Shown here piece by piece: positions 1,769-13,871 of a DNA stretch of 64,000 nt. Positions within the stretch are counted from its first letter, which is position 1; every line of letters starts with the position of its first letter. Made by a program: the position numbers and the translations under genes. Where the stretch lies: contig NZ_LT630003.1 of NCBI RefSeq assembly GCF_900105615.1, positions 1,302,001 to 1,366,000 on the forward strand. Direction: 5' to 3'. The stretch comes from Lacrimispora sphenoides JCM 1415 (lineage in GTDB: Bacteria; Bacillota; Clostridia; Lachnospirales; Lachnospiraceae). The notes under the pieces were generated by a model. That model was not told where the DNA came from. It was given only the letters and a program-made list of their open reading frames with translations, and made no database searches.

Positions 1769-2872
1769 ATGAAATATATAATTAATCAGAACCAGTGCGG
1801 TTTTTTAATGAAGGATGGTATTTTTATCAAAACCTTATACTGCGGAAAATACTGGTACCCGGGAATGCTCGGTTATCAAGTTGTAATAGAAAAAATGGAA
1901 GGTTCCGTCGGTTTTGGCACATTGCCTGTAGAGGTATTATTGCAGGATCAAACATTTGCTGATAAAGTTTTACATATCAAGATCCCCGAGGGACACATCG
2001 GCATTCTGCGATTAAATGGTGTGGTTCAGCAGGTGCTGACCGATCCGGTATATTTGTATTGGAACAATTGGAATCGATATGATTATGAACTGTTGGATAT
2101 GAGAGAGCCGAAAATGAAGGCGGAGATCACCAAATCCTGCCTGGCACATATTCCGTTAAAATATTATAAGAAAATTGAGATTAAAACGGGCGAAACAGGT
2201 GTTTTGTATTTTGACAATCAGATGGTGGGCGAATTAGCGGCCGGTACCTACTTTTATTGGACTTATGCCAAAGACGTAGTATGCCAGGTAGTTGATTTAA
2301 GAGCAAGATCCTTAGAGATCAACGGCCAGGAAATCCTGACAGCCGACCGAATCGGTATCAGAGTCAATCTGTTATGTACTTACCGGGTCACTCAGGTGAA
2401 AAGAATGCTTGAGACCATTAAGAATCAAGAAACTCAGATATATGCCTGCGTGCAGTTGGTGGTCAGAGAATTTATCGGCAAATATCGGTTGGATGAGATT
2501 CTGGAGCAAAAAGAAGAAATCTCCTGTTTTATCTGCACACAGCTGAAAGAAATGCAGGATGAATACTGCATCGAATTTTTGACTGTAGGGATTAAGGATA
2601 TTATCTTACCGGGAGAGATCCGGGAGATTATGAATACTGTGCTGATCGCCGAGCGGAAAGCTCAGGCCAATGTTATCACCAGAAGAGAGGAAGTGGCTTC
2701 CACTCGGTCACTTCTGAATACGGCAAAGCTAATGGATGAGAATAAAACGCTGTATAAATTAAAGGAGTTAGAGTGTCTGGAACGAATCTGCATGCAGGTC
2801 GGCAATATCAACATAGCCGGCAGCGGCGCACTGCTTGAGCAGCTGCGGGAGCTGATGGGCGGATACGTATAA
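1769..2872 (+). CDS. Slipin / band-7 (SPFH) family protein
   Basis: A 367-residue SPFH-domain protein. The region near residues 175-215 reads VDLRARSLEINGQEILTADR and continues into IGIRVNLLCTYRV, matching the slipin core. It is followed by GIKDIILPGEIREIMNTV and an Ala/Glu-rich helical stretch with AERKAQANVITRREEVAST, the usual oligomerisation segment. No N-terminal membrane helix is evident, unlike classical stomatins, so it is probably cytosolic or only peripherally membrane-bound. ATG 1769 is preferred because AGAGGTG lies seven bases upstream; an in-frame GTG at 1760 overlaps that ribosome site. It follows rtcB and the structured RNA in the same direction. Slipin genes have been noted beside rtcB in other bacteria, so a role in sensing or organising RNA damage is plausible but not shown. 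Confidence 0.85.
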   Translation: MKYIINQNQCGFLMKDGIFIKTLYCGKYWYPGMLGYQVVIEKMEGSVGFGTLPVEVLLQDQTFADKVLHIKIPEGHIGILRLNGVVQQVLTDPVYLYWNNWNRYDYELLDMREPKMKAEITKSCLAHIPLKYYKKIEIKTGETGVLYFDNQMVGELAAGTYFYWTYAKDVVCQVVDLRARSLEINGQEILTADRIGIRVNLLCTYRVTQVKRMLETIKNQETQIYACVQLVVREFIGKYRLDEILEQKEEISCFICTQLKEMQDEYCIEFLTVGIKDIILPGEIREIMNTVLIAERKAQANVITRREEVASTRSLLNTAKLMDENKTLYKLKELECLERICMQVGNINIAGSGALLEQLRELMGGYV

Positions 2873-2886
2873 ACATAAATGACAGA

Positions 2887-2943
2887 TTTCACAAATGGGC
2901 TGCCCTTGGCACGGAAATGTGCCAGAGGTGCCTGTTTGTGAAA
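2887..2943. terminator. Hairpin between convergent genes
   Basis: TTTCACAAA (2887-2895) pairs with TTTGTGAAA (2935-2943), and an inner stem TGGCAC (2907-2912)/GTGCCA (2919-2924) has a 6-base loop. It lies exactly between the end of the slipin gene and the end of the oppositely directed response regulator gene, so it probably ends transcription from both sides. Confidence 0.55.
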
Positions 2944-2944
2944 T

Positions 2945-3634
2945 TTACGCCTTAAGCCGATACCCCGCACCCCGCACCGTCTGGATATACCGGGGGTTGC
3001 CTGGATCTTCCTCTATTTTGTCCCTCAGACGGTTGATGTGGACGGCGACAGTGGCATTATCGCCCATGGCCTCCATACCCCAGATACGCTCGTAAAGCGT
3101 TTCCCGGTTAAAGACCACATCTTCGTTGAGTGCCATAAACAGTAAAAGCTCATATTCCTTGTTTTTCAGTTCGATTTCAATGTCATTTACATAGACTCTG
3201 CGAGTATCGGTGTTGATGCGGATATTGCCAAAGGTAATCTGTATCGGCGCGGTCCTATCCGATTTCTTCAATCTGGCATATTGAGCCAGGTGCGCCTTAA
3301 CCCGTGCTACCAGCACACTGGGAGAAAAAGGCTTCTCAATGTAGTCATCTGCGCCAAGTCCGAGTCCGCGTATCTTATCAATATCCTCCCAACGGGCCGT
3401 GACCATCAGGATAGGAATGTCCAGTGTCTCCCGCAGCTTGCGGCAGATGGTAAAACCGTCAATACCGGGAAGCATAAGATCAAGCAGGATCAGATCGTAG
3501 CAGCCCTGTAATGCTTTTTCCAAACCGATATTTCCATTCGTCGCAATTTCCACCTCAAAATTATGGATTTCAAGGTAATCTCGCTCAATTGCTGCGATTG
3601 CTGTATCATCTTCTATAATCAGTATTTTCTCCAT
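2945..3634 (-). CDS. OmpR/PhoB-family response regulator
   Basis: A 229-residue two-domain regulator. The receiver domain (1-115) has acidic residues Glu8, Asp9 and Asp10, phospho-acceptor Asp52 in LILLDLMLP, Thr79 in MVTA and Lys101 in EKPF. The C-terminal winged helix (about 130-229) has RETLYERIWG and ends in the usual TVRGAGYRLKA. It sits one base downstream of its histidine kinase on the same strand, so the pair is one operon. The operon diverges from the P-type ATPase gene, which is a likely target; tandem repeats typical of this regulator class lie in that promoter region. The signal is unknown. Confidence 0.95.
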   Translation of the reverse strand: MEKILIIEDDTAIAAIERDYLEIHNFEVEIATNGNIGLEKALQGCYDLILLDLMLPGIDGFTICRKLRETLDIPILMVTARWEDIDKIRGLGLGADDYIEKPFSPSVLVARVKAHLAQYARLKKSDRTAPIQITFGNIRINTDTRRVYVNDIEIELKNKEYELLLFMALNEDVVFNRETLYERIWGMEAMGDNATVAVHINRLRDKIEEDPGNPRYIQTVRGAGYRLKA

Positions 3635-3635
3635 A

Positions 3636-5108
3636 TTATTCCTCCGCTTTTGGCAGCCAAATTACAAGTTCCAAACCACCGTTTTTGCCAGCTTTTGCGT
3701 CAATCGTTCCATTCATGCGTTGTATCGCATTGGCGGCGATCGCAAGACCAAGACCGCTTCCGCGATGAGGATCCTGCCGGGAAGGATCGCTGCGATAAAA
3801 CACTTCGAACAGGTGGGACAGTGCTTCGTTTGGAACACCTGGTCCATCGTCACAAAGGGAAAGGCAGTATCCGCCGTTTTCTTCCCACAGGGAGATGGTC
3901 AGAGTACCTTTATCCTTCGTTTTATACTTGGCGCTGTTCTCCATAATGTTGGTCATCACACGCCGAAGCTGGTCCGGGTCAGCCAACACCGCAGCCGGGA
4001 CAAGAGCATTGGCGGATAAAACCAGTCCCTTTTCCTCATACTCTGTCCCTAATGCCCGTAGGAACTGCCGTACTTCATCGTCAAGCCGTAGGAGCTCCGG
4101 GTTATCTGGGTATTCACCAAGCTCCATCTTGGAGAACAGGAAAATCTTGGACAGCATACGGTCAATGTCTTCTGCTTTGCTTTTGATGATTTCTAAATAT
4201 CCTTTTTGGTTTTCCGGTGTTTTGGCAATACCATCCAGAAGCCCTTCCACATAAGCCTGTATAGAAGTCAATGGACTGCGCAGGTCATGGGAGATACCGG
4301 CCAGCAATTCCTTGCGGCTTTGCTCATGCTGGTCAGTCAGCTCTACCGAGGCTTTGAGCCGGGCGGCCATTTCATTGAAATCGGCACAAATAGGTGCGAA
4401 CTCGTCTTGACAATCATATACAATGCGGTGCTCTAAATTTCCATCGCTGATCTGTCTTACGCCGTCAGAAAGAATGTTCAGCGGCTGTTCGATTTTCTGG
4501 AACACAAACTTCGTAAGAAATCGGTTAGTAAGCAGGATAGAGAAGAGTATGGCAATCAAAAGAATAACCGCCTGTATTACAAGGACAACTTTCAGGATAC
4601 GATAGGATAGCTTTGAAGGGCTGGCAAAAATGGCGATGCGGTAAACGGCGCCATTATTTTCGACTTGCTGAACATATAGCTCACGATTCCCGTTGGAAAC
4701 AAAGCCTTTTCCTCCCAATATCGCTTCAGCTTCCATCAGAATTCTATCTGCATCGGTTGCACTCCCATACTGATAGAGAGTTTTACCGGAAGAATCCACA
4801 GATAACGCTATGGAGTTTCTGTCCAGTATCCTGCTGATCCCAGCCAGATCCTCCGCAAGGTTTGCGTTCTTTTCTTTTTTCAGTGATTTCTCGACGATCA
4901 TGGAAATGCCCCGGCTGGCCTTATAAAAGTCTTCGCTGTCATTAAAACCAAGACCCGAGCCAGATGTGACGACAAACCAGAGAATGCCAGCACAAACAAT
5001 TCCAATAAATGAAGTGATTACTACTGGTACAATGATCATCAGAATATTGGAAATAACAAGCCGTTTTTTTATTGTTATATTTTTATAAAATATTGCTTTT
5101 ATTTTCAT
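3636..5108 (-). CDS. Sensor histidine kinase (HAMP, HisKA, HATPase)
   Basis: A 490-residue membrane kinase. One membrane helix is near 18-48 and a second near 170-193, enclosing a short extracellular sensor region. HAMP follows at about 195-250, then the HisKA motif GISHDLRSPLTS with His274, and the ATP-binding boxes NIMENSAKYK, LCDDGPGVP and GSGLGLAIAANA. The frame opens at ATG 5123, but no ribosome site precedes that codon. ATG 5108 has GGCGGTG about eight bases upstream and is preferred. It is cotranscribed with the response regulator one base downstream. Candidates for its input include cations, given the divergent P-type ATPase, or envelope stress from antibiotics. Confidence 0.93.
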   Translation of the reverse strand: MKIKAIFYKNITIKKRLVISNILMIIVPVVITSFIGIVCAGILWFVVTSGSGLGFNDSEDFYKASRGISMIVEKSLKKEKNANLAEDLAGISRILDRNSIALSVDSSGKTLYQYGSATDADRILMEAEAILGGKGFVSNGNRELYVQQVENNGAVYRIAIFASPSKLSYRILKVVLVIQAVILLIAILFSILLTNRFLTKFVFQKIEQPLNILSDGVRQISDGNLEHRIVYDCQDEFAPICADFNEMAARLKASVELTDQHEQSRKELLAGISHDLRSPLTSIQAYVEGLLDGIAKTPENQKGYLEIIKSKAEDIDRMLSKIFLFSKMELGEYPDNPELLRLDDEVRQFLRALGTEYEEKGLVLSANALVPAAVLADPDQLRRVMTNIMENSAKYKTKDKGTLTISLWEENGGYCLSLCDDGPGVPNEALSHLFEVFYRSDPSRQDPHRGSGLGLAIAANAIQRMNGTIDAKAGKNGGLELVIWLPKAEE

Positions 5109-5442: not shown

Positions 5443-7755
5443 ATGGAGGCACCAATGCAAGGTCTGTCTGCGCAGGAAGTAAAGGAACGCAAAGAACGGG
5501 GAGATTTGGGAAAACAACCAGGTTCCATTACAAAAACCAAGGCGCAGATATTTAAAGAAAACATTTTTACATTATTCAATTTGCTCAATTTTATTATTGC
5601 GGCATTGCTTTTTGCTGTCGGTGCTTATTCCAATATGATTTTTATTGTCATTATTATTATCAATGTTATAATCGGGATTGCACAGGAACTAAAAGCGAAA
5701 AAACTGATAGACGAGCTGTCGATCTTAAACCGGCCAAAGGCAAAATTGATAAGAGATGGCAGAGAGATCGTTGTTGAAACCGAGGACATCGTTATAGATG
5801 ATGTAATGGTACTGGAAAGCGGACATCAAATCTGTAATGACGGGATTGTGCTTGGCGGTATGGCAGAAGTTAATGAATCGCTGCTAACCGGCGAAAGTGA
5901 TGCCATATTAAAGACAGAGGGCAGCGAGCTTTATTCCGGAAGCTTTGTCGTTACTGGAAAGTGTTATGCGAAAACAACGCACGTAGGCAGTGAAAATTAT
6001 GCCGTGAAGCTCATGGAGGAAACAAAAAAAACTAAGAGTGTTTCGTCTGAATTGCTCGGTTCCATGAAACAGGTGACCCGCTTTACAAGCTTTCTTATTG
6101 TGCCGTTGGGGATTCTGTTGTTCCTTGAAGCAATCATGCTCAGGCAAGTATTGGTTTCGGATGCGGTCGTATCTTCTTCGGCGGCACTTTTGGGGATGCT
6201 TCCCAAAGGATTGGTGCTCCTGATTGCTGTTTCGCTTGCAAACGGCGTTATCCGTCTGGCAAATATGAAGATTCTGGTTCAGAATATCTATTCTCTGGAG
6301 ACACTGGCGCATGTGGATGTTCTGTGCCTTGATAAAACGGGAACCATTACAGACGGTAAGATGAAGGTTAAGGAAGTGCTTCCGTTAAGGGATTTTCCGA
6401 ATAAAAAACTGTCACCGCTGATTCAGTCTTATCTTGCTGCGAGTGATGATAATAACGCAACCTTTCAGGCTCTTCAAGAACATTTTGGAACAAATTCTGT
6501 GTACCAGCAGACATATAAAATTCCATTTTCCTCCCTTCGGAAGTGGGGCGCGGTCAGCTTTAACACTGCCGGAACAGTATTCATCGGTGCGGCTGAGCGG
6601 ATTATGAACGTATTGCCTGCGGCTGTAGAGCACCAGATTGAAAAGGGCTGCCGTGCTGTTATAATAGGCATTTACGATGGTGAATGGCAAAATGAAAGAG
6701 AACTGCCGGATGAGATTGAACCGCTGTGCGCCGTTATTTTAGAAGATAATATTCGAAAAGGCACTGCAAAAACACTGGAGTATTTTCGCAAAGAAGGCGT
6801 TGACGTAAAAGTTATTTCCGGTGATCATATCAAAACAGTGTCTATCATCGCGAAGAAAGCAGGATTAAAGGATTGGGAAAATGCAGTCGATCTGTCCTCC
6901 TTTGGAGAGGACATGGATTATGACAGCATATGCATGAAGTATACTGTATTCGCCCGGGTGACGCCGAAACAAAAGCAGTTGCTTGTGATGGCTATGAAGC
7001 GCGCAGGACATCAGGTGGCGATGACTGGCGATGGTGTGAATGATCTTTTAGCCCTTAGAGAAGCAGATTGTTCTATCGCAATAGCCGAAGGCAGTGATGC
7101 CAGCCGCCAGATTTCACAGATCGTATTGTTGGATTCAGATTTTGCAAATCTGCCGCAGGTGGTGTTGGAAGGAAGAAAAGTGATTAATAATGTGACCAGA
7201 ACAGCAGGGGTATTTTTTATTAAAACGATCTATTCTTTGCTGCTGTCTATTTTCTTCCTGCTGTTTAATATGCCTTTTCCGTTTATTCCAATTCAAATTA
7301 CGCTGATTGACGCTTTTATTGAAGCGTATCCATCGTTTCTGACAATTTTTGAATCGAATACGAAGAGAGTCCGCAGCTCTTTCTTAAGGACAGCATTGGC
7401 AAATGCAGCACCATTTGCGCTGACTATTACAGCCGGAATCATTTTTATCAGCCTTACCTTACCATTTGATACACAGCAAAGGCAGACGATTATGTACATG
7501 CTTTTAATTCTGGTATCTATGCTTTCGGTTATTAAAAGTTGTATTCCATTTACAAAGCTGCGTGTATTTATTTGTGTTACAATGGTGTTAGGGGCATTTG
7601 GGGCGCTGTGGATACTGCCTCAGTTGTTTGAAATTTCTGTCATAACAACAGCGATGTTGTCTTATATAGGGAAAGTGTTTGTGGGACTGTTGCTAATTTT
7701 GACACTTCTGATCTGTATAACCCCCAAAATTGAAAAGCATGAAAACCTTGGCTGA
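5443..7755 (+). CDS. Cation-transporting P-type ATPase
   Basis: A 770-residue pump that couples ATP hydrolysis to cation movement across the cell membrane. Seen in order: an N-terminal pair of membrane helices (about 40-85), the actuator loop with ESLLTGESD, helices near 210-270 ending in GMLPKGLVLL, the phosphorylation motif DKTGTITDG with Asp297, the hinge MTGDGVNDLLALREAD, and about six C-terminal helices. MLPKGL replaces the PEGL or CPC of the classical subfamilies, which excludes a P1B heavy-metal pump. It resembles the CtpE-type group linked to Ca2+, but the ion cannot be read from sequence. ATG 5443 is chosen because GGAGG ends five bases before it; an in-frame ATG at 5431 includes that ribosome site. 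Confidence 0.88.
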   Translation: MEAPMQGLSAQEVKERKERGDLGKQPGSITKTKAQIFKENIFTLFNLLNFIIAALLFAVGAYSNMIFIVIIIINVIIGIAQELKAKKLIDELSILNRPKAKLIRDGREIVVETEDIVIDDVMVLESGHQICNDGIVLGGMAEVNESLLTGESDAILKTEGSELYSGSFVVTGKCYAKTTHVGSENYAVKLMEETKKTKSVSSELLGSMKQVTRFTSFLIVPLGILLFLEAIMLRQVLVSDAVVSSSAALLGMLPKGLVLLIAVSLANGVIRLANMKILVQNIYSLETLAHVDVLCLDKTGTITDGKMKVKEVLPLRDFPNKKLSPLIQSYLAASDDNNATFQALQEHFGTNSVYQQTYKIPFSSLRKWGAVSFNTAGTVFIGAAERIMNVLPAAVEHQIEKGCRAVIIGIYDGEWQNERELPDEIEPLCAVILEDNIRKGTAKTLEYFRKEGVDVKVISGDHIKTVSIIAKKAGLKDWENAVDLSSFGEDMDYDSICMKYTVFARVTPKQKQLLVMAMKRAGHQVAMTGDGVNDLLALREADCSIAIAEGSDASRQISQIVLLDSDFANLPQVVLEGRKVINNVTRTAGVFFIKTIYSLLLSIFFLLFNMPFPFIPIQITLIDAFIEAYPSFLTIFESNTKRVRSSFLRTALANAAPFALTITAGIIFISLTLPFDTQQRQTIMYMLLILVSMLSVIKSCIPFTKLRVFICVTMVLGAFGALWILPQLFEISVITTAMLSYIGKVFVGLLLILTLLICITPKIEKHENLG

Positions 7756-7790: not shown

Positions 7791-8159
7791 ATGGAAAATT
7801 ATTCGCAAAAAGAGCTGGATGCTGCATTACAGCTTATATTTACTACCATCAAAAATTGTGAAAAAATGCAATTAAAATTTGCAGAAGGTACATCGCAGCA
7901 TTCTCTTTTAAAGAATAGAATTAAGGCTTTGTATATTTCAAAAGCTTTAATAGAAAAAGATAGTAATATAGGAATGTATACTAAAACTGATTTAATAAAA
8001 GCATTACCGCCTGTTCTGTCAATCATAAGCAAAACTGAGAAGGCTCAAATTAAATATGACAAAGAAACTATTCCGTACAGACGATTCACTCCGATCATAC
8101 ATGCAATGAATATTTCCAAAGACTTTATAGAGAAGGAGATATCGAATCGAACACCGTAA
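7791..8159 (+). CDS. Small two-repeat helical protein, unknown function
   Basis: I do not recognise this 122-residue protein. It consists of two related halves, about 7-60 and 67-118. Each has a run of helix with E-K-x-Q-x-K, an acidic/threonine turn, then an alpha-helical segment ending in (N)xISKxLIEK or (N)xISKDFIEK. The halves align without large gaps, so it arose by internal duplication. There are no Cys, no signal peptide and no membrane helix; it is Lys/Glu-rich and probably cytosolic. GAGGTG lies six bases upstream of the ATG. It starts 35 bases after the P-type ATPase and could be cotranscribed with it, although its base composition is more AT-rich and closer to the resistance island that follows. 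Confidence 0.75.
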   Translation: MENYSQKELDAALQLIFTTIKNCEKMQLKFAEGTSQHSLLKNRIKALYISKALIEKDSNIGMYTKTDLIKALPPVLSIISKTEKAQIKYDKETIPYRRFTPIIHAMNISKDFIEKEISNRTP

Positions 8160-8248
8160 ATTTTGCCAATAAAAGCCGCTGGTTATACTGTCTGAGTATG
8201 AATTTGGTGTCAGCATATTAGAAAAAGATTTTCTTTAGCCACTCTTTG

Positions 8249-8277
8249 TTGACTTTTCAAGTAAATAATAGTACAAT
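8249..8277 (+). promoter_or_regulatory. Promoter of the ABC-F/cfr island
   Basis: TTGACT (8249-8254) and TACAAT (8272-8277) are separated by 17 bases, a near-consensus housekeeping promoter. The resulting transcript would have about 400 untranslated bases before the ABC-F gene, containing two short reading frames and three hairpins. A weaker second promoter, TTAATT then TATAAT (8435-8440), may lie within the leader. Confidence 0.65.
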
Positions 8278-8303
8278 AATAAAAAATAATTCGAGGTGAA
8301 AAA

Positions 8304-8324
8304 ATGATTAATTTTTCTTGCTAA
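8304..8324 (+). CDS. Six-codon upstream reading frame
   Basis: GAGGTG (8293-8298) precedes an ATG by five bases, and the frame then encodes only M-I-N-F-S-C before TAA. It lies just before a terminator-like hairpin (8352-8370). Short leader frames of this kind precede many drug-inducible ribosome-protection genes, where a stalled ribosome changes RNA folding. Translation is inferred from the ribosome site only. Confidence 0.45.
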   Translation: MINFSC

Positions 8325-8351
8325 TTTTTCCAGTACACTTAATACAAGGCG

Positions 8352-8376
8352 AAACAGGGCTGTCCTGTTTGTTTTG
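8352..8376 (+). terminator. First attenuator hairpin of the ABC-F leader
   Basis: AAACAGG (8352-8358) and CCTGTTT (8364-8370) pair around loop GCTGT and are followed by GTTTTGTT. Flanking bases (AGTAC before, GTACT after) can lengthen the stem. It is positioned after the six-codon reading frame. Confidence 0.5.
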
Positions 8377-8465
8377 TTGTACTCATGCAAGAAAGATATT
8401 CTTTTTTCTCTTAATTTATACACTTGTGTTGTGCTATAATTTTTAGCTTAACTGCGTATATTTAT

Positions 8466-8505
8466 GAGCTGTAAGAATAATTAATTCTTGCAGCTCTTAT
8501 TTTTT
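8466..8505 (+). terminator. Second attenuator/terminator of the ABC-F leader
   Basis: A 13-bp stem, GAGCTGTAAGAAT (8466-8478) with ATTCTTGCAGCTC (8484-8496) and one G-T pair, has a five-base loop and is followed by TTATTTTTTAT. This is a good intrinsic terminator placed before the 26-codon leader frame, so the resistance genes need read-through, or initiation further downstream, to be expressed. Confidence 0.7.
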
Positions 8506-8535
8506 ATAAAATTTTATAAGGAGGATTAATAAATT

Positions 8536-8616
8536 ATGATAAATACAGACACTTTGATAACACATGTTAATATCCATATAGAGTCGGATACTGCAGGCGG
8601 CACATATATGGAGTAA
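8536..8616 (+). CDS. 26-residue leader peptide before the ABC-F gene
   Basis: AAGGAGG (8518-8524) precedes this ATG, and the frame encodes 26 residues and ends TAA 66 bases before the ABC-F start. It contains Thr-His at 9-10, His14, Asp18, Gly21 and a C-terminal Met-Glu. All of these match at the same positions in the 26-residue frame in front of the downstream cfr-like gene. The stop codon lies inside the loop of a switchable hairpin. A drug-sensing leader is the likely role; it is inferred from position, ribosome site and the paired leader. Confidence 0.6.
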   Translation: MINTDTLITHVNIHIESDTAGGTYME

Positions 8617-8643
8617 TAATAAGGTCGCCTGATTGTTCCGACT
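8573..8643 (+). promoter_or_regulatory. Switchable hairpins overlapping the ABC-F leader peptide
   Basis: One fold pairs TCCATATA (8573-8580) with TATATGGA (8605-8612). The alternative pairs AGTCGGA (8582-8588) with TCCGACT (8637-8643), with inner stem CAGGCG (8594-8599)/CGCCTG (8626-8631), followed by a T-rich run. The folds interleave and cannot both form, as expected for ribosome-controlled attenuation. Confidence 0.55.
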
Positions 8644-8682
8644 TTGTTATTTATATGATTAAATTCAGAGGAGGACAAAAAT

Positions 8683-10161
8683 ATGTCTTTAATAAATGTA
8701 GCAAATCTAACCTTTGCTTATGAAGGTAGTTATGATAATATTTTTGAAAATGTAAGTTTTCAGATTGATACCGATTGGAAATTAGGCTTTACCGGAAGAA
8801 ATGGCAGAGGGAAGACTACCTTTCTAAATCTTTTGCTGGGCAAATACGAATATAGCGGAAGCATTTCTGCGAATGTGACGTTTGAATATTTTCCTTATGA
8901 AGTGGAGGAACAAAGTAATTTCACCATAGATATCATAAGGGAAATCAGTCCAAATTCAGAGGATTGGGAGATAGTTAAAGAATTATCATTATTAGATATG
9001 GATTATGACACTTTGTATAGGCAGTTTTATACACTATCGAAAGGTGAGCAGACGAAAGCACTGTTGGCTGCCATGTTTTTGAAGGAGAAATCCTTCTTAC
9101 TGATCGATGAGCCAACCAACCATTTGGATGCTGAAGCCAGGCAAAAACTGAGTGATTACTTGAAAAAGAAGAAAGGATTTATCCTGATTTCCCATGACAG
9201 GTCTTTTTTAGATAATTGTGTAGATCATATCTTGTCTATTAATAAAACGAATATCGAAATACAAAAGGGAAACTTTTCTTCATGGTGGAGAAATAAAGAA
9301 TTACAGGATAATTTTGAGCTTGCAGAAAATGAAAAATTAAAAAAGGACATTAACAGACTTTCAAGCTCGGCGAAACGGACCTCCACCTGGTCAGATAATG
9401 TTGAAAGCAGTAAGTTTGGAACCACTAATTCCGGAAGCAAATTAGATAAAGGATACGTTGGACATAAAGCTGCAAAAATGATGAAGCGTGCTAAAAATAT
9501 AGAATCCAGACAACAAAACATGATAGAGGAAAAGTCAAAGCTTCTTAAAAATATTGAATCAAATGAAAGCTTAAAATTAGCACCGTCTAAGTTCCATGAT
9601 AAAAAGCTTGTGGAGTTAACAGATGTTACAATTAATTATGATGATAAAATTGTCTGTGAAGGAATAAGTTTCACCATTGAGCAAGGTGAAAAAATTGCTG
9701 TTCAAGGAAAGAACGGCAGTGGAAAATCAAGCATCTTAAAATTGATTTATGGAGATGACATCCCTCATAGTGGAATTGTAAGAAAGAACAACAACTTAAT
9801 CATTTCCTATGTCTCACAAGATACATCAGATTTATATGGTGATTTATCTGAGTATGCGGATAAGAACGGCATTGACGAGAGCTTATTTAAATCAATGCTT
9901 AGAAAGCTTGATTTTTCAAGAGAACAGTTTGAAAAGCATATCGAGGATTTTAGCGGAGGACAGAAGAAAAAGGTATTACTTGCTAAAAGTCTTTGTGAAC
10001 GGGCACATTTATATATTTGGGATGAGCCATTAAACTTTATTGATGTCATTTCCCGTATGCAGATTGAGAAATTATTAACAGAGCATGAACTGACAATCTT
10101 GTTTGTTGAGCATGACAGAACATTTTGTGAAAATGTGGCAACAAAAACAATTAAATTATAA
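8683..10161 (+). CDS. Lsa-type ABC-F ribosomal protection protein
   Basis: A 492-residue ABC-F ATPase without membrane segments. It has two nucleotide-binding domains: Walker A GRNGRGKT (38-45), signature LSKGEQ near 119 and DEPTNHLD in the first; GKNGSGKS near 343, FSGGQKKK and LYIWDEPLNFID in the second. A charged linker at about 190-300 is the antibiotic-resistance domain that reaches into the ribosome. Overall pattern, length and the WDEPLNFID variant match Lsa proteins, which displace lincosamides, streptogramin A and pleuromutilins from the peptidyl transferase centre. GAGGAGG precedes the ATG. An elaborate leader lies upstream and a cfr-like gene 161 bases downstream. The drug range of this member is not deducible. 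Confidence 0.9.
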   Translation: MSLINVANLTFAYEGSYDNIFENVSFQIDTDWKLGFTGRNGRGKTTFLNLLLGKYEYSGSISANVTFEYFPYEVEEQSNFTIDIIREISPNSEDWEIVKELSLLDMDYDTLYRQFYTLSKGEQTKALLAAMFLKEKSFLLIDEPTNHLDAEARQKLSDYLKKKKGFILISHDRSFLDNCVDHILSINKTNIEIQKGNFSSWWRNKELQDNFELAENEKLKKDINRLSSSAKRTSTWSDNVESSKFGTTNSGSKLDKGYVGHKAAKMMKRAKNIESRQQNMIEEKSKLLKNIESNESLKLAPSKFHDKKLVELTDVTINYDDKIVCEGISFTIEQGEKIAVQGKNGSGKSSILKLIYGDDIPHSGIVRKNNNLIISYVSQDTSDLYGDLSEYADKNGIDESLFKSMLRKLDFSREQFEKHIEDFSGGQKKKVLLAKSLCERAHLYIWDEPLNFIDVISRMQIEKLLTEHELTILFVEHDRTFCENVATKTIKL

Positions 10162-10180
10162 AGTGGAAAAGGAAATTAAT

Positions 10181-10261
10181 ATGTATAAAGAGTTAATAAT
10201 AGCAACACACAATAGGCTCCATGCAAAGCCGGATGTTTTGGGCGACGCTTGCATGGAGTAG
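10181..10261 (+). CDS. 26-residue leader peptide before the cfr-like gene
   Basis: The frame starts 19 bases after the ABC-F stop, with GGAAA before the ATG as a modest ribosome site. It encodes 26 residues and ends TAG 61 bases before the cfr-like start. Thr-His (9-10), His14, Asp18, Gly21 and the final Met-Glu coincide with the leader of the ABC-F gene, and the DNA around both stop codons (ATGGAGTA, then GTCGC) is also shared. The two leaders are therefore homologous, and the pair probably senses the same drugs. Confidence 0.58.
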   Translation: MYKELIIATHNRLHAKPDVLGDACME

Positions 10262-10318
10262 GATAAGTCGCTAATCATACTGGCTTTGCTTCCTAACGAT
10301 TTAAAGTGAGGAGGAAGC
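10217..10318 (+). promoter_or_regulatory. Switchable hairpins and masked ribosome site before cfr-like gene
   Basis: CTCCATGCAA (10217-10226) is perfectly complementary to TTGCATGGAG (10249-10258). GCAAAGCCGG (10223-10232) overlaps the first arm and pairs instead with CTGGCTTTGC (10280-10289), with inner GCGAC/GTCGC. GCTTCCT (10288-10294) can also pair with AGGAAGC (10312-10318), which is the ribosome site of the cfr-like gene. The three are partly exclusive, so translation of the leader should decide access to the start codon. Confidence 0.55.
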
Positions 10319-10322
10319 CTGC

Positions 10323-11357
10323 GTGAAACAGACAAAAACAAAATATAAAATAATGAAACAAATAGTATCAGATATGAAATTACCTGATTATAGATACGAA
10401 CAGATTATAAATGCTGTTTTTCATCAAAGAATAGATAATTTTGATAATATGCAGATACTGCCAAAAGCGTTAAGGATGGCTTTGGTAAATGAGTTTGGAA
10501 ATTGTGTATCAAGTGTAAAACCTGTTTTTATACAAGATTCCAAACAAGCTGAAAAATTGCTGTTCGAATTATCTGATGGAGAAAAAATAGAAGCTGTTGG
10601 ACTAAAATATAAGCAGGGATGGGAATCGTTTTGCATATCTACCCAATGCGGCTGCGGTTTTGGCTGTCGCTTTTGTGCAACGGGAAGTGCTGGTTTTAAA
10701 CGTAATCTTACGGTTGATGAGATCACTGACCAATTACTTTATTTCCTTTTTAATTCTCATAAACTCAATAGCGTATCGTTTATGGGAATGGGTGAAGCTC
10801 TTGCAAATCCGGAGTTATTTGACGCCGTAAAAATTTTAACGGATCAAAGTTTATTTGGATTAGGGCAGCGAAGAATTACTGTTTCAACAATTGGCATTAT
10901 ACCGGGAATTCAAAGATTGACCAGAGAATTTCCACAAGTGAATCTGACCTTTTCCCTTCATTCACCATTTGATAAACAACGAAGCGATTTAATGCCTATA
11001 AATAAAAGATTTCCATTGAATGAAGTAATGAAAGCATTAGATGAACATATCATTCATACGGGTCGGAGAGTGTTTATTGCTTATATTATGCTTGAAGGAA
11101 TGAATGATACCAAAGATCATGCAGAAGCAGTTGTAAGTTTATTGAAAAGCCGCGGTTCATGGGGACATTTATATCACATTGATCTAATCCCTTATAATTC
11201 CACGGACAAAACAGCTTTTAAATTTCAATCTTCAAGTGCTATCAGACAATTTGGCGGCATTCTAAAGAAGGCCGGTATAAGCGTAACGATTAGAACGCAA
11301 TTTGGCTCTGAAATTAGTGCTGCATGCGGACAGCTGCATTATGAAAGTGAATTATGA
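10323..11357 (+). CDS. cfr-like: Cfr-type 23S rRNA (adenine-C8) methyltransferase
   Basis: A 344-residue radical SAM methyltransferase of the RlmN/Cfr family. The [4Fe-4S] cluster cysteines are Cys111, Cys115 and Cys118 (CGFGCRFC). The two catalytic cysteines are Cys104 (SFCIS) and Cys335 (AACGQL), matching Cys105 and Cys338 of Staphylococcus Cfr. Stretches such as LTVDEITDQ, SFMGMGEALAN, STIGIIPGI, VNLTFSLHSP and VVSLLKSR agree with Cfr rather than housekeeping RlmN. Cfr methylates C8 of A2503 and gives resistance to phenicols, lincosamides, oxazolidinones, pleuromutilins and streptogramin A. The start is GTG 10323, five bases after GGAGGAAG. It lies downstream of an Lsa-type ABC-F gene in an AT-rich island that looks acquired. 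All catalytic residues are present. Which cfr variant this is cannot be settled by eye. Confidence 0.88.
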   Translation: MKQTKTKYKIMKQIVSDMKLPDYRYEQIINAVFHQRIDNFDNMQILPKALRMALVNEFGNCVSSVKPVFIQDSKQAEKLLFELSDGEKIEAVGLKYKQGWESFCISTQCGCGFGCRFCATGSAGFKRNLTVDEITDQLLYFLFNSHKLNSVSFMGMGEALANPELFDAVKILTDQSLFGLGQRRITVSTIGIIPGIQRLTREFPQVNLTFSLHSPFDKQRSDLMPINKRFPLNEVMKALDEHIIHTGRRVFIAYIMLEGMNDTKDHAEAVVSLLKSRGSWGHLYHIDLIPYNSTDKTAFKFQSSSAIRQFGGILKKAGISVTIRTQFGSEISAACGQLHYESEL

Positions 11358-11416
11358 TGCTGGCCGCAAATTTTATACCAGGCATCTACACTTATGATTA
11401 TGAGCCAATAGTAGAA

Positions 11417-11455
11417 AACAAGGTACAGGAGTAATAATCTGTACCTTGTTTTTTG
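11417..11455 (+). terminator. Intrinsic terminator after the cfr-like gene
   Basis: AACAAGGTACAG (11417-11428) and CTGTACCTTGTT (11439-11450) form a perfect 12-bp stem with a 10-base loop, followed by TTTTTTG. It closes the resistance operon. Confidence 0.9.
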
Positions 11456-11603
11456 TATGTTGCAGGGATTCGGGGATCAATCCTTCGGTGATCTGCTTGC
11501 TGTTAATATAATTCGTTTGGAAATATTTATGATTTCGTTATTCCTTTCATTCATTTTTATGCTATCATTAAATTATTCTATATGTTTTTGCGGGGGAGGA
11601 AGA

Positions 11604-13871
11604 GTGAATAAAAAAGGCGGAGTAAAGTTAAGCAAAATGCGTTACTTGTATTATGGGTTGTGCATTTTGATCGGCTGCTTTGTATTGTGGATCGCTTTGA
11701 TGGAAGGAAAGCGGCTGCATTATTTGGATATAGAAATTATGCCAGCAAAGCAGAGCTTTGTAATCAATGTTGGGGCAAATAGCGAGGATGTTGATATCTT
11801 TGCTGCGGAAAAAGATGTTCATGTTACGGTCAGCTATACCGGAAAATTGCAAGAGCATCAGACGAGACAGACAATAGAGGGAAATATCAGGGAAAAAACA
11901 TCAGACAGCACGCCGATCCATCTTTTGTTGTTTGGCTTTGACAACACAGATAATTGGCAATGGGAACTGTTAAGTTCTGTGGGCTTGTCTTCAATTCACT
12001 ATAGTCAGGGAGAGATGGCAAATATTCGGGTGTACCTTTACGTGTTTGCCGTTGCCATATTTGGGGTACTGGGCATTTTTCTGCTTTTTAAAAATAATGG
12101 TAAAAAGAGAAACTATACAAAAGAAAGATTACTGGAATTTACGGATGACGCAGAGAATCAGGCAGCATTTGAGGCGGGGAAGCGGTGGTTTTTGATTCAT
12201 GACAGGAGACGATACTGGAACCGATGTCTGATATTATTATTCGCCTTCGGATCAGGTTTTTACATTTTCCAGGAATATTTCTACAAGTGGGTCTTTCTGA
12301 ATTCATTAGACTACATAGGAATTGTTTTTATAGTAACTCTGGTGATTTTAAGCTTAGGCGGTGCCTTGGAAGCTTATTGGGCAAAAAAGCATATGGAGGT
12401 ACTTACAAAAGAGAACCGGCCCCTTACTGCGGCGGCAGCTTTTTTAATGGAGGCAGCCTATGGTCCCTATAGGCTGCAGTCCTACTATAAAAAACAAGTA
12501 CATAATGCTGCCGCCGGACTTGCCAGGGCTGGAAAATATGAGCAGGCGCTGAAGCTGGCTGATTTTGGCTGGAAGGGCGTTCAGGAAAAGAAACTGATGC
12601 AGCTGGCTCACAGCAATCTATGCTACGTATGCTTCATAGGGCTGGGAAGGCAAGAAGATGCCGAAACAGAATATTCACACCAGAAGCAGCTTGTTAAAAA
12701 TCATCCCCAATTAAAAAGGATAGGAGAGGCGATGCTTCTGTTATCTGAAATCAGGAAGGCATATACAGATCAGAAATTTGGGCAGGTGGAAGCCTATGTA
12801 AATGTATATTGTGATCGTTATCCAGACGCATATCATTGCATACCGCTCATGCCTATTCAGATGAATGTTTATGAACAAGCAGGTGAAATGGAGAAGGCAA
12901 AAAATATATGCGGTAATCTGCTTTCCTACAGCCCTGAAAATATAGCAGTCAGGGAGGCGATGGGATATGGAGCTTGTACCTATGTGGAATCTACCGGCTT
13001 CCTGAAAGATAAGACCGGACTTGTGTGCCGGATTGTTTTAACCGGAGTACTTGGCATTTACACGGTGCTGTTTGGAATCCTTATGTTAATGGGTTCACAT
13101 CATTGGGGAACAAGTAAAACGAGAGTATATGAAGAGACGAAAGCCGAAGAACTCATACAGCAAACAAATGCTACCGAGAAGGCAGAAGAAGAGCCGATGG
13201 AAACAGAGATGTCGGAAACGGAGCAGGAGCAGACTGTTCAGGCTTCTAACTCCCAGGCGCCAGGCTTTAAGCTGGATTTGCCAAAAGAATGGAATCGCCT
13301 GGCTGTCAGAAATGAGTTTAAAGGAGGGTGCAGCTACCATCAGAAAAAATCTTATGATTTGATGGGGGATGGGGTTTTATTCTATATTCAGACGTACTCG
13401 GACTGCAGCTATGTTAATCTGCCAGACTATGATATATGGGGATATGATGGTCCCTATGTATATGTAATGTCACTGCCCACAGATGTGACGTTTTATATGG
13501 AAGACAGTTCCATAATGGAAGAATACAATAAAATGCATCGTGAAATCAGTCAAATACAGGATACTTTCCGGATTCAGTCTGATACTGCAAAATATGACGG
13601 CTCTGAATTTGTATTTCCTAACAGCAGCGATAGCCTTTTGCAGGAGCCGGATTTATGGAATCTTTCAGCCAGTCAGCTGCGGATTGCAAGAAACGAGATT
13701 TATGCAAGACATGGCAGGCGGTTTGCTGATGAAGAATTGCAGAGGTATTTTAATCAATGCAGCTGGTATGAAGGAATGATTGATCCAAAAGATTTTGAGG
13801 AAGATGTGCTGAATGAAACAGAACGTTTCAATATCCGTTTGATTCAGGAACAACAGAAAAGTATGGAGTAG
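11604..13871 (+). CDS. Multi-span membrane protein with C-terminal YARHG domain
   Basis: A 755-residue envelope protein of unknown role. Membrane helices are seen near 15-32, 145-165, 215-260 (two) and about 490-510. The region between 270 and 450 is helical and rich in Ala, Tyr and Leu, like TPR repeats (for example KYEQALKLADFGWKGV). After a low-complexity Glu/Thr/Gln linker, residues from about 555 are outside the membrane. They end in a YARHG domain (LRIARNEIYARHGRRF near 690-705), a module found in extracellular clostridial proteins. GTG 11604 with GGGAGGA a few bases upstream is preferred; an in-frame ATG at 11457 lies inside the preceding terminator tail. It is 20 bases upstream of another membrane protein and probably cotranscribed with it. 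Confidence 0.75.
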   Translation: MNKKGGVKLSKMRYLYYGLCILIGCFVLWIALMEGKRLHYLDIEIMPAKQSFVINVGANSEDVDIFAAEKDVHVTVSYTGKLQEHQTRQTIEGNIREKTSDSTPIHLLLFGFDNTDNWQWELLSSVGLSSIHYSQGEMANIRVYLYVFAVAIFGVLGIFLLFKNNGKKRNYTKERLLEFTDDAENQAAFEAGKRWFLIHDRRRYWNRCLILLFAFGSGFYIFQEYFYKWVFLNSLDYIGIVFIVTLVILSLGGALEAYWAKKHMEVLTKENRPLTAAAAFLMEAAYGPYRLQSYYKKQVHNAAAGLARAGKYEQALKLADFGWKGVQEKKLMQLAHSNLCYVCFIGLGRQEDAETEYSHQKQLVKNHPQLKRIGEAMLLLSEIRKAYTDQKFGQVEAYVNVYCDRYPDAYHCIPLMPIQMNVYEQAGEMEKAKNICGNLLSYSPENIAVREAMGYGACTYVESTGFLKDKTGLVCRIVLTGVLGIYTVLFGILMLMGSHHWGTSKTRVYEETKAEELIQQTNATEKAEEEPMETEMSETEQEQTVQASNSQAPGFKLDLPKEWNRLAVRNEFKGGCSYHQKKSYDLMGDGVLFYIQTYSDCSYVNLPDYDIWGYDGPYVYVMSLPTDVTFYMEDSSIMEEYNKMHREISQIQDTFRIQSDTAKYDGSEFVFPNSSDSLLQEPDLWNLSASQLRIARNEIYARHGRRFADEELQRYFNQCSWYEGMIDPKDFEEDVLNETERFNIRLIQEQQKSME

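Follow-up and report, generated by a model that had tools for sequence, protein, structure and literature searches.

The Lacrimispora sphenoides locus described here raises the question of whether two neighboring resistance genes, one for ribosome protection and one for methylation, are placed under one kind of control, how such control would operate and how it came to precede both genes. The window, i.e. the whole stretch of 64,000 nucleotides that was analyzed (strain JCM 1415, contig NZ_LT630003.1, positions 1,302,001 to 1,366,000), contains a gene encoding a Lsa-family ABC-F protein of 492 aa (8683..10161; NF000167 767.8 bits, cutoff 750) followed by a gene encoding a Cfr-family 23S rRNA methyltransferase of 344 aa with a GTG start (10323..11357; TIGR04432 612.6 bits, cutoff 550). 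Each gene is preceded by a frame of 26 codons, and all window features given below are on the + strand. Our main reading, to which we assign a probability of about 0.7, is that the two leaders are members of a single family of RNA switches that depend on a ribosome and control translation of the gene behind, in which a drug-stalled ribosome would turn the gene ON.

Conservation of two leaders at the lsa-cfr locus

The G+C content of positions 8001-12000 was 0.349, against 0.40-0.50 in the remaining 4-kb blocks of the window. Among 397 genomes of the host's family, only the window's own genome had a cfr match at E 1e-90, and the close relatives of this cfr were distributed in Lacrimispora, Clostridium, Terrisporobacter, Metaclostridioides and Tissierella. 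The low G+C, the single occurrence in the family and the relatives across genera would together fit a horizontal spread of the cfr locus. The same genome encodes a second lsa, 58% identical (C1:1775095-1776588, L183), with no 26-codon leader within 420 bases upstream.

Leader A (8536..8616, 26 codons plus stop, MINTDTLITHVNIHIESDTAGGTYME) is located before the lsa-type gene and leader B (10181..10261, 26 codons plus stop, MYKELIIATHNRLHAKPDVLGDACME) before the cfr-type gene. The first-pass annotation of this DNA had reported two frames of exactly 26 codons with shared residues in ungapped register and common DNA around the stop codon, and each of these observations was confirmed: both frames have the reported length, the residues listed there account for 8/26 matches between the window's leaders A and B (permutation p 0.0006), and the DNA common to both stop-codon regions, ATGGAGTA .. 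GTCGC, is present. Lack of conservation at homologous loci had been named beforehand as the outcome that would speak against the proposal. Among 80 cfr-type loci, both leaders were detected in 9/9 of those with a cfr of 78-87% identity (L003-L011), and every one of these leaders had 26 codons. The tenth and last of the 80 cfr loci with the leader was L013 (cfr 64%), where leader B reads MYKLDYIVTHDRLHAKPEVSGDLCME and where no lsa match was obtained in its 7 kb. In L004 the lsa gene is cut down to a 90-codon frame (around 2420-3003), with both leaders and cfr retained.

A survey for Lsa gave a match in 71 of 391 genomes. Of the 30 loci that were fetched, five carried leader A at most 350 bases upstream, namely the window's own locus, L088, L089, L090 and L102, and in the last two no cfr match was detected within the fetched stretch. 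The 26-codon leader is a minority form among the Lsa and cfr loci fetched. Before the cfr-type genes of L012-L082 another conserved leader, about 36-42 codons long, was observed (e.g. MFEVVNVHVNRSLSVGTVHDQTKRMPEHYPSIDRCT), matched by motif at 62/71 mostly Paenibacillaceae cfr loci; a folding scan of eight such leaders gave no clear codon peak.

That A and B are homologous to each other, as the annotation had assumed, was borne out by matches of up to 15/26 residues. The two leaders of L010 matched in 12/26 residues, and A of L090 matched B of L013 in 15/26 residues and 55/81 bases, a value reached by 0/100,000 permutations. Both frames have their own Shine-Dalgarno sequence and are conserved together with the downstream gene, as in erm-type systems.

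Overlapping RNA arms, further copies and the origin of leader B

In leader A, arm a (8572..8581; columns 37-46 of alignment A1, which comprises 22 leaders) pairs with arm c (8604..8613, columns 69-78), and arm b (8578..8587, columns 43-52), which overlaps arm a, pairs with arm d (8638..8647, columns 105-114). An inner helix is formed by 8596..8601 (columns 61-66) and 8624..8629 (columns 91-96). Arm d may alternatively pair with the Shine-Dalgarno side of the lsa-type gene (arm e, 8666..8674, read from the sequence), a pairing that was judged by eye and is weaker than in B. The corresponding segments of leader B are arm a (10217..10226, also recovered by pattern match), arm c (10249..10258), arm b overlapping arm a (10223..10232) and the inner helix (10241..10246 with 10267..10272), in the same alignment columns. 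Within arm d of leader B (10280..10294, columns 105-114 and sequence), positions 10280-10289 pair with b, and 10288-10294 are the complement of the Shine-Dalgarno side before the cfr-type gene (arm e, 10308..10318, from the sequence). The register of d:e differs between A and B.

In A1, 97.3% of the pair cells of helix a:c form, compared with 23-48% when the partners are slid by 1-3 columns; for b:d together with the inner helix the values are 96.6% and 31-44%. For both helices, none of the 500 shuffles reached the observed covariation score or the observed number of cells changed on both sides. Pairs with a two-sided change numbered four in a:c and four in b:d, matched by 39/500 and 77/500 shuffles, and such counts are not independent since the leaders compared are related sequences. 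The same pair of mutually exclusive hairpins had been proposed for each gene; both are conserved, and covariation indicates that the two helices are real and, like those of erm-type leaders, mutually exclusive. Searches with Rfam 15 gave no family above gathering cutoff in window positions 8150-11500 or in the leader regions of L129, L125, L130, L132, L123, L138, L013 and L084; a sub-cutoff RT-6 match covered the L123 leader (25.6, cutoff 46.7). In the lsa(E) plasmid locus L086 and the lsa locus L131 the hairpin region is partly kept, and no 26-codon frame was listed there.

With a first leader model (R1), every strong match preceded lsa or cfr, and the matches before other genes were weaker. 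A later model (R2) detected three strong copies in the window genome, before a Mef-like MFS gene, cfr and lsa (E 4.5e-18, 1.3e-14 and 3.1e-11; next match 0.14). The Mef-like gene is located outside the window (C1:1083603-1084904, module region to 1085040) and has a 12-codon leader, MLLCIGTAPCKV, with the same RNA arms. The label denotes resemblance, since the MFS protein falls well short of the Mef cutoffs (112.7 with the best Mef model, cutoff 870). The protein had a match in 32/99 relatives (E 1e-60), and 25 of 30 fetched loci contained a leader by filter, either of 11-15 codons (M.LCIG.APCKV type) or of 26-29 codons (MLCHRIIDLSNQLCTKSDDKAIFVQR type).

The module was also found before CD3324-type genes in L125, L130, L132 and L137, identified by an NCBIfam match in L130 and L137 and by similarity in L125 and L132, and weakly in L206, L207 and L210. 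Among 12 further CD3324 loci, arm-like sequence was seen by eye in three (L171, L175 and L181) and was absent by eye from the other nine. The CD3324/Mor-like small gene is followed in L132 and L137 by a Vat-like gene (235 and 242 bits, cutoff 300) and in L125 by an RlmB-like one (114.5, cutoff 160). Our literature search found no relevant paper on CD3324-family genes. Nine R2 matches outside the strong ones were inspected, and two were convincing: L205 (Tissierella sp. P1; E 1.2e-7), where the module immediately precedes a gene that matches RlmB below cutoff (58 bits) and presumably encodes a methyltransferase of the SpoU family, and L203, a Mef-like copy in the genome that also holds L013. 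In L188, L208, L211 and L212 a convincing leader was absent. The module is wider than the first-pass annotation had it, with a third copy in the same genome and further gene types elsewhere.

The exact form of the arm pattern is rare, since two of 206 clostridial genomes carry it (reversed control none). A distant blastn search of plasmids with 123 bases of leader B gave no match. Three pattern matches were obtained in viral contigs, of which only L137 had a leader and a gene; L135 and L136 did not and were rejected. Searches of the viral contigs with CD3324 and Mef-like proteins gave no relatives.

Alignment A2 comprises 24 leaders of four gene families that were chosen by hand, only three of them from CD3324 genes. 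Helix a:c was 99.1% paired (22-56% when slid) with four two-sided pairs, reached by 100/500 shuffles, and helix b:d was 94.9% paired (20-45% when slid) with seven two-sided pairs, reached by 0/500 shuffles. At the overlap of arms a and b, column 31 and its two partners read GCC in 17 and ATT in seven of the 24 leaders, exceptions none; three leaders of the ATT set precede lsa, and the other four are distant Mef-type leaders. The Shine-Dalgarno side also has complementarity to arm d, with the best fit among the Mef-type leaders.

The annotation took the pair for one leader module duplicated to serve both genes. A local duplication of leader A upon cfr joining lsa would account for the equal length, the same frame, the common residues (up to 15/26) and the location of both leaders within one gene pair, but A occurs without cfr in the stretches fetched for L090 and L102, and B without lsa in the 7 kb of L013. 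In a tree of 41 leaders, B did not branch beside A; it clustered together with the CD3324-gene and short Mef-type leaders (UFBoot 88), although the inner nodes linking B were weak (33-57) and B alone was not recovered as a clade. A local duplication is not supported by these comparisons and appears doubtful, and A and B are more aptly seen as two representatives of a wider family that precedes at least four gene types.

Ribosome position and the proposed switch

In the folding scans, each leader was masked to the ribosome leading edge, a P-site codon k corresponding to a mask up to base 3k+13, and the exposure of the Shine-Dalgarno region was computed. Exposure was maximal at codons 8-11, which contain Thr9-His10, in 20/22 leaders (59/264 shuffled controls), and the gain was above 0.1 in 19/22 (24/264 shuffles). 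In a base-by-base scan the best edge was at nt 40-44 in 19/22 leaders, which equals codons 8-11 for masks from 3k+11 to 3k+15. Exposure without a ribosome was 0.04-0.39 in B leaders and 0.17-0.52 in A leaders, and B leaders were at or below 0.47 throughout. The window's own leader A gained just 0.05, with its base-by-base maximum at nt 17; the gain was 0.05 in A_L089 and -0.08 in B_L007, and the peak fell outside codons 8-11 in A_L102 and B_L007. Folding thus predicts that a ribosome stalled in the leader would expose the Shine-Dalgarno region, weakly so for the window's leader A. For 22 Mef-type and CD3324 leaders picked by hand, the maximum was in the interval set by arm a in 18 (32/176 shuffles) and the gain exceeded 0.1 in 15 (49/176 shuffles); L150, L123, L154 and L160 missed the predicted interval. 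The predicted stall codon shifts along with arm a as leader length varies.

The sequences themselves show the leaders and that these are homologous, both helices (through covariation) and the amino-acid-level conservation of Thr9-His10, and folding predicts the codon interval; drug, stalling, OFF state and induction are added by inference. In the OFF state, a would pair with c, and d would occupy the Shine-Dalgarno side (e). If a ribosome with bound drug stalled while its P site was near codons 8-11 (Thr9-His10), it would cover a and leave b free; b would then capture d, and the released Shine-Dalgarno region would turn the gene ON. Given the overlap of a and b, a stall short of this point or beyond it would leave the gene OFF, and the switch would read the position of the stall. 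The OFF state is presumed, because equilibrium folding without a ribosome favored b:d, not a:c, in 10/13 leaders (a:c in 3/13). The leaders probably act by translation attenuation through a drug-stalled ribosome at one spot, and the drug-sensing role claimed earlier fits the predictions of the folding scan and the genes controlled. Arrest by linezolid and chloramphenicol is described as best with a penultimate Ala and less with Ser or Thr (PMC8987054). Thr9 as penultimate residue with His10 in the P site would fit phenicols and oxazolidinones.

Transcription attenuation was considered as an alternative, in which b:d or another leader hairpin would be a terminator and the stalled ribosome would let RNA polymerase through, as in CplR-type or VmlR-type ABC-F leaders. 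Attenuation of this type is common for ABC-F genes according to PMC10201436, and a T-rich stretch is located 3' of arm d in leader A. However, no terminator was called at b:d or d:e of leader A or on the + strand at leader B, the B and Mef-type leaders have no T-run after arm d, and a canonical terminator tied to another frame, MINFSC, is already present upstream of the lsa gene. We therefore regard control of transcription by leaders A and B as unlikely.

The hexapeptide frame MINFSC (8304..8324), recognized from the sequence and by comparison of lsa loci, is a putative upstream attenuator of the lsa-type gene. Downstream of it lie a segment whose complement occurs in the MINFSC codons as well as in the 3' arm of the terminator (8387..8394, the likely antiterminator side) and an intrinsic-terminator-like hairpin with a T-rich tail (8466..8506; stem 8466-8496 by terminator scan). 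M..[FI]SC frames were found within 600 bases upstream in 22/62 lsa loci. At 17 of these 22 loci one segment, GCAAGAA at 8387 in the window, has complementarity to the codons TTTCTTGC and likewise to a TTCTTG-type segment farther on; the latter corresponds in the window to the 3' arm of the hairpin 8466-8496. A terminator with a U-tract, as in CplR and VmlR, is found at the MINFSC element and not in leaders A or B on the + strand. A promoter-like TTGACT-17-TACAAT is located at 8249-8277, such sites being not more frequent here than in shuffles. The MINFSC element may add a further attenuator, of the transcription type, in series with leader A, and leader A is kept in L009 although the region 5' of it is replaced by unrelated repetitive sequence without a MINFSC frame.

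It is very improbable that the 26-codon frames are incidental, i.e. that the RNA is a ligand- or protein-binding element and its arms can be read as codons only by chance. The arms do account for much of the similarity between the peptides: Leu/Ile13, His14, Tyr/Cys24, Met25 and Glu26 fall within arms a and c, so that the conservation of residues 13, 14 and 24-26 is largely forced by RNA pairing, and two more residues, Asp18 on the b:d side and Gly21 in the inner helix, likewise fall at or within paired segments. Part of the A/B similarity quoted in the annotation is arm complementarity, and peptide-level selection on the whole similarity was rejected, as residues 13-16 and 24-26 lie within complementary arms. 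The Mef-type leaders moreover read the same arm sequence in another frame (APCK, compared with LHAK). However, besides Met1, only Thr9-His10 was both identical in 21/21 leaders counted (the 22nd, L084, with Thr-His one codon earlier, was left out) and outside the complementary arms, with codons varying synonymously only (ACA 20, ACG 1; CAT 13, CAC 8). Likewise, residue 3 was Leu in all 14 short Mef-type leaders, from five codons. The frames have also retained a Shine-Dalgarno sequence and a start, and the predicted stall codon follows arm a across leader lengths.

A broader extension of the ribosome-dependent switch, which we hold tentatively and at slightly less than even odds, is that a single portable element reads the position of a stalled ribosome to about three codons on at least five kinds of resistance-type genes (ABC-F protection, Cfr methylation, Mef-like efflux, CD3324 genes with Vat-like acetylation, and RlmB/SpoU-like methylation). 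Stall-site codons would be exchanged (Thr-His, Leu-Cys-Ile, Asp-Leu-Ser) to set the drug sensed, and the switch RNA would stay constant. If true, inducible resistance to ribosome-targeting drugs in clostridia would partly be one shared regulatory module and not one leader per gene. The codons that determine drug specificity and the RNA that carries out the switch would then be separable parts, making context-specific stalling comparable across natural leaders. The overlapping arm sequence offers a search handle for resistance-type genes, including those of the CD3324 family.

Comparison with known attenuators

The hairpin segments of erm leaders are numbered, and their rearrangement is a 2:3 exchange. 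Here, arms a and b overlap on one segment, and the ON helix would be b:d in place of that exchange. The peptides of A and B are unrelated to erm leader peptides, and the A/B module serves several gene types. The erm-type translational attenuators (ermC, ermB) likewise have a short upstream frame, stalling and a hairpin exchange that frees a downstream Shine-Dalgarno sequence (PMC11264731 and PMC10219788).

In ARE-ABCF attenuators, too, a stalled ribosome on an upstream frame controls resistance ABC-F genes, and PMC10201436 gives consensus uORFs of 3-4 residues (MAGN for LsaA, MR[I/M] for CplR and MIN for VmlR), describes a terminator combined with Shine-Dalgarno sequestration in CplR and states that cfr is often beside lsa. 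Unlike these uORFs, the leader frame has 26 codons with no terminator called inside and also precedes a cfr gene. The MAGN consensus of the LsaA type, as given in PMC10201436, was found neither in leader A with its 26 codons nor in the upstream frame MINFSC, which resembles the ARE-ABCF uORF class more than leader A does. In the literature searched, mostly without subscription papers, no description of leaders A and B was found.

Upstream of plasmid lsa(B) (L084, S. aureus plasmid NZ_CP028164.1), too, there is a frame of 26 codons that includes Val-Thr-His, and the complementary arms CTCCGTATA / TATACGGAG come after this motif. The frame is absent from the record's own table, which describes itself as incomplete. 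It differs in that Thr-His is one codon earlier and other residues diverge, with ungapped matches of 3/26 to the window's leader B, 2/26 to L102 and 1/26 to the window's leader A (p 0.48 to 1.0). Its membership in the family is based on the arms and the common V-T-H. Two Rfam RF02452 ncr1575 matches are located between cfr and lsa(B) in L084, at 4635-4852 and 5624-5835.
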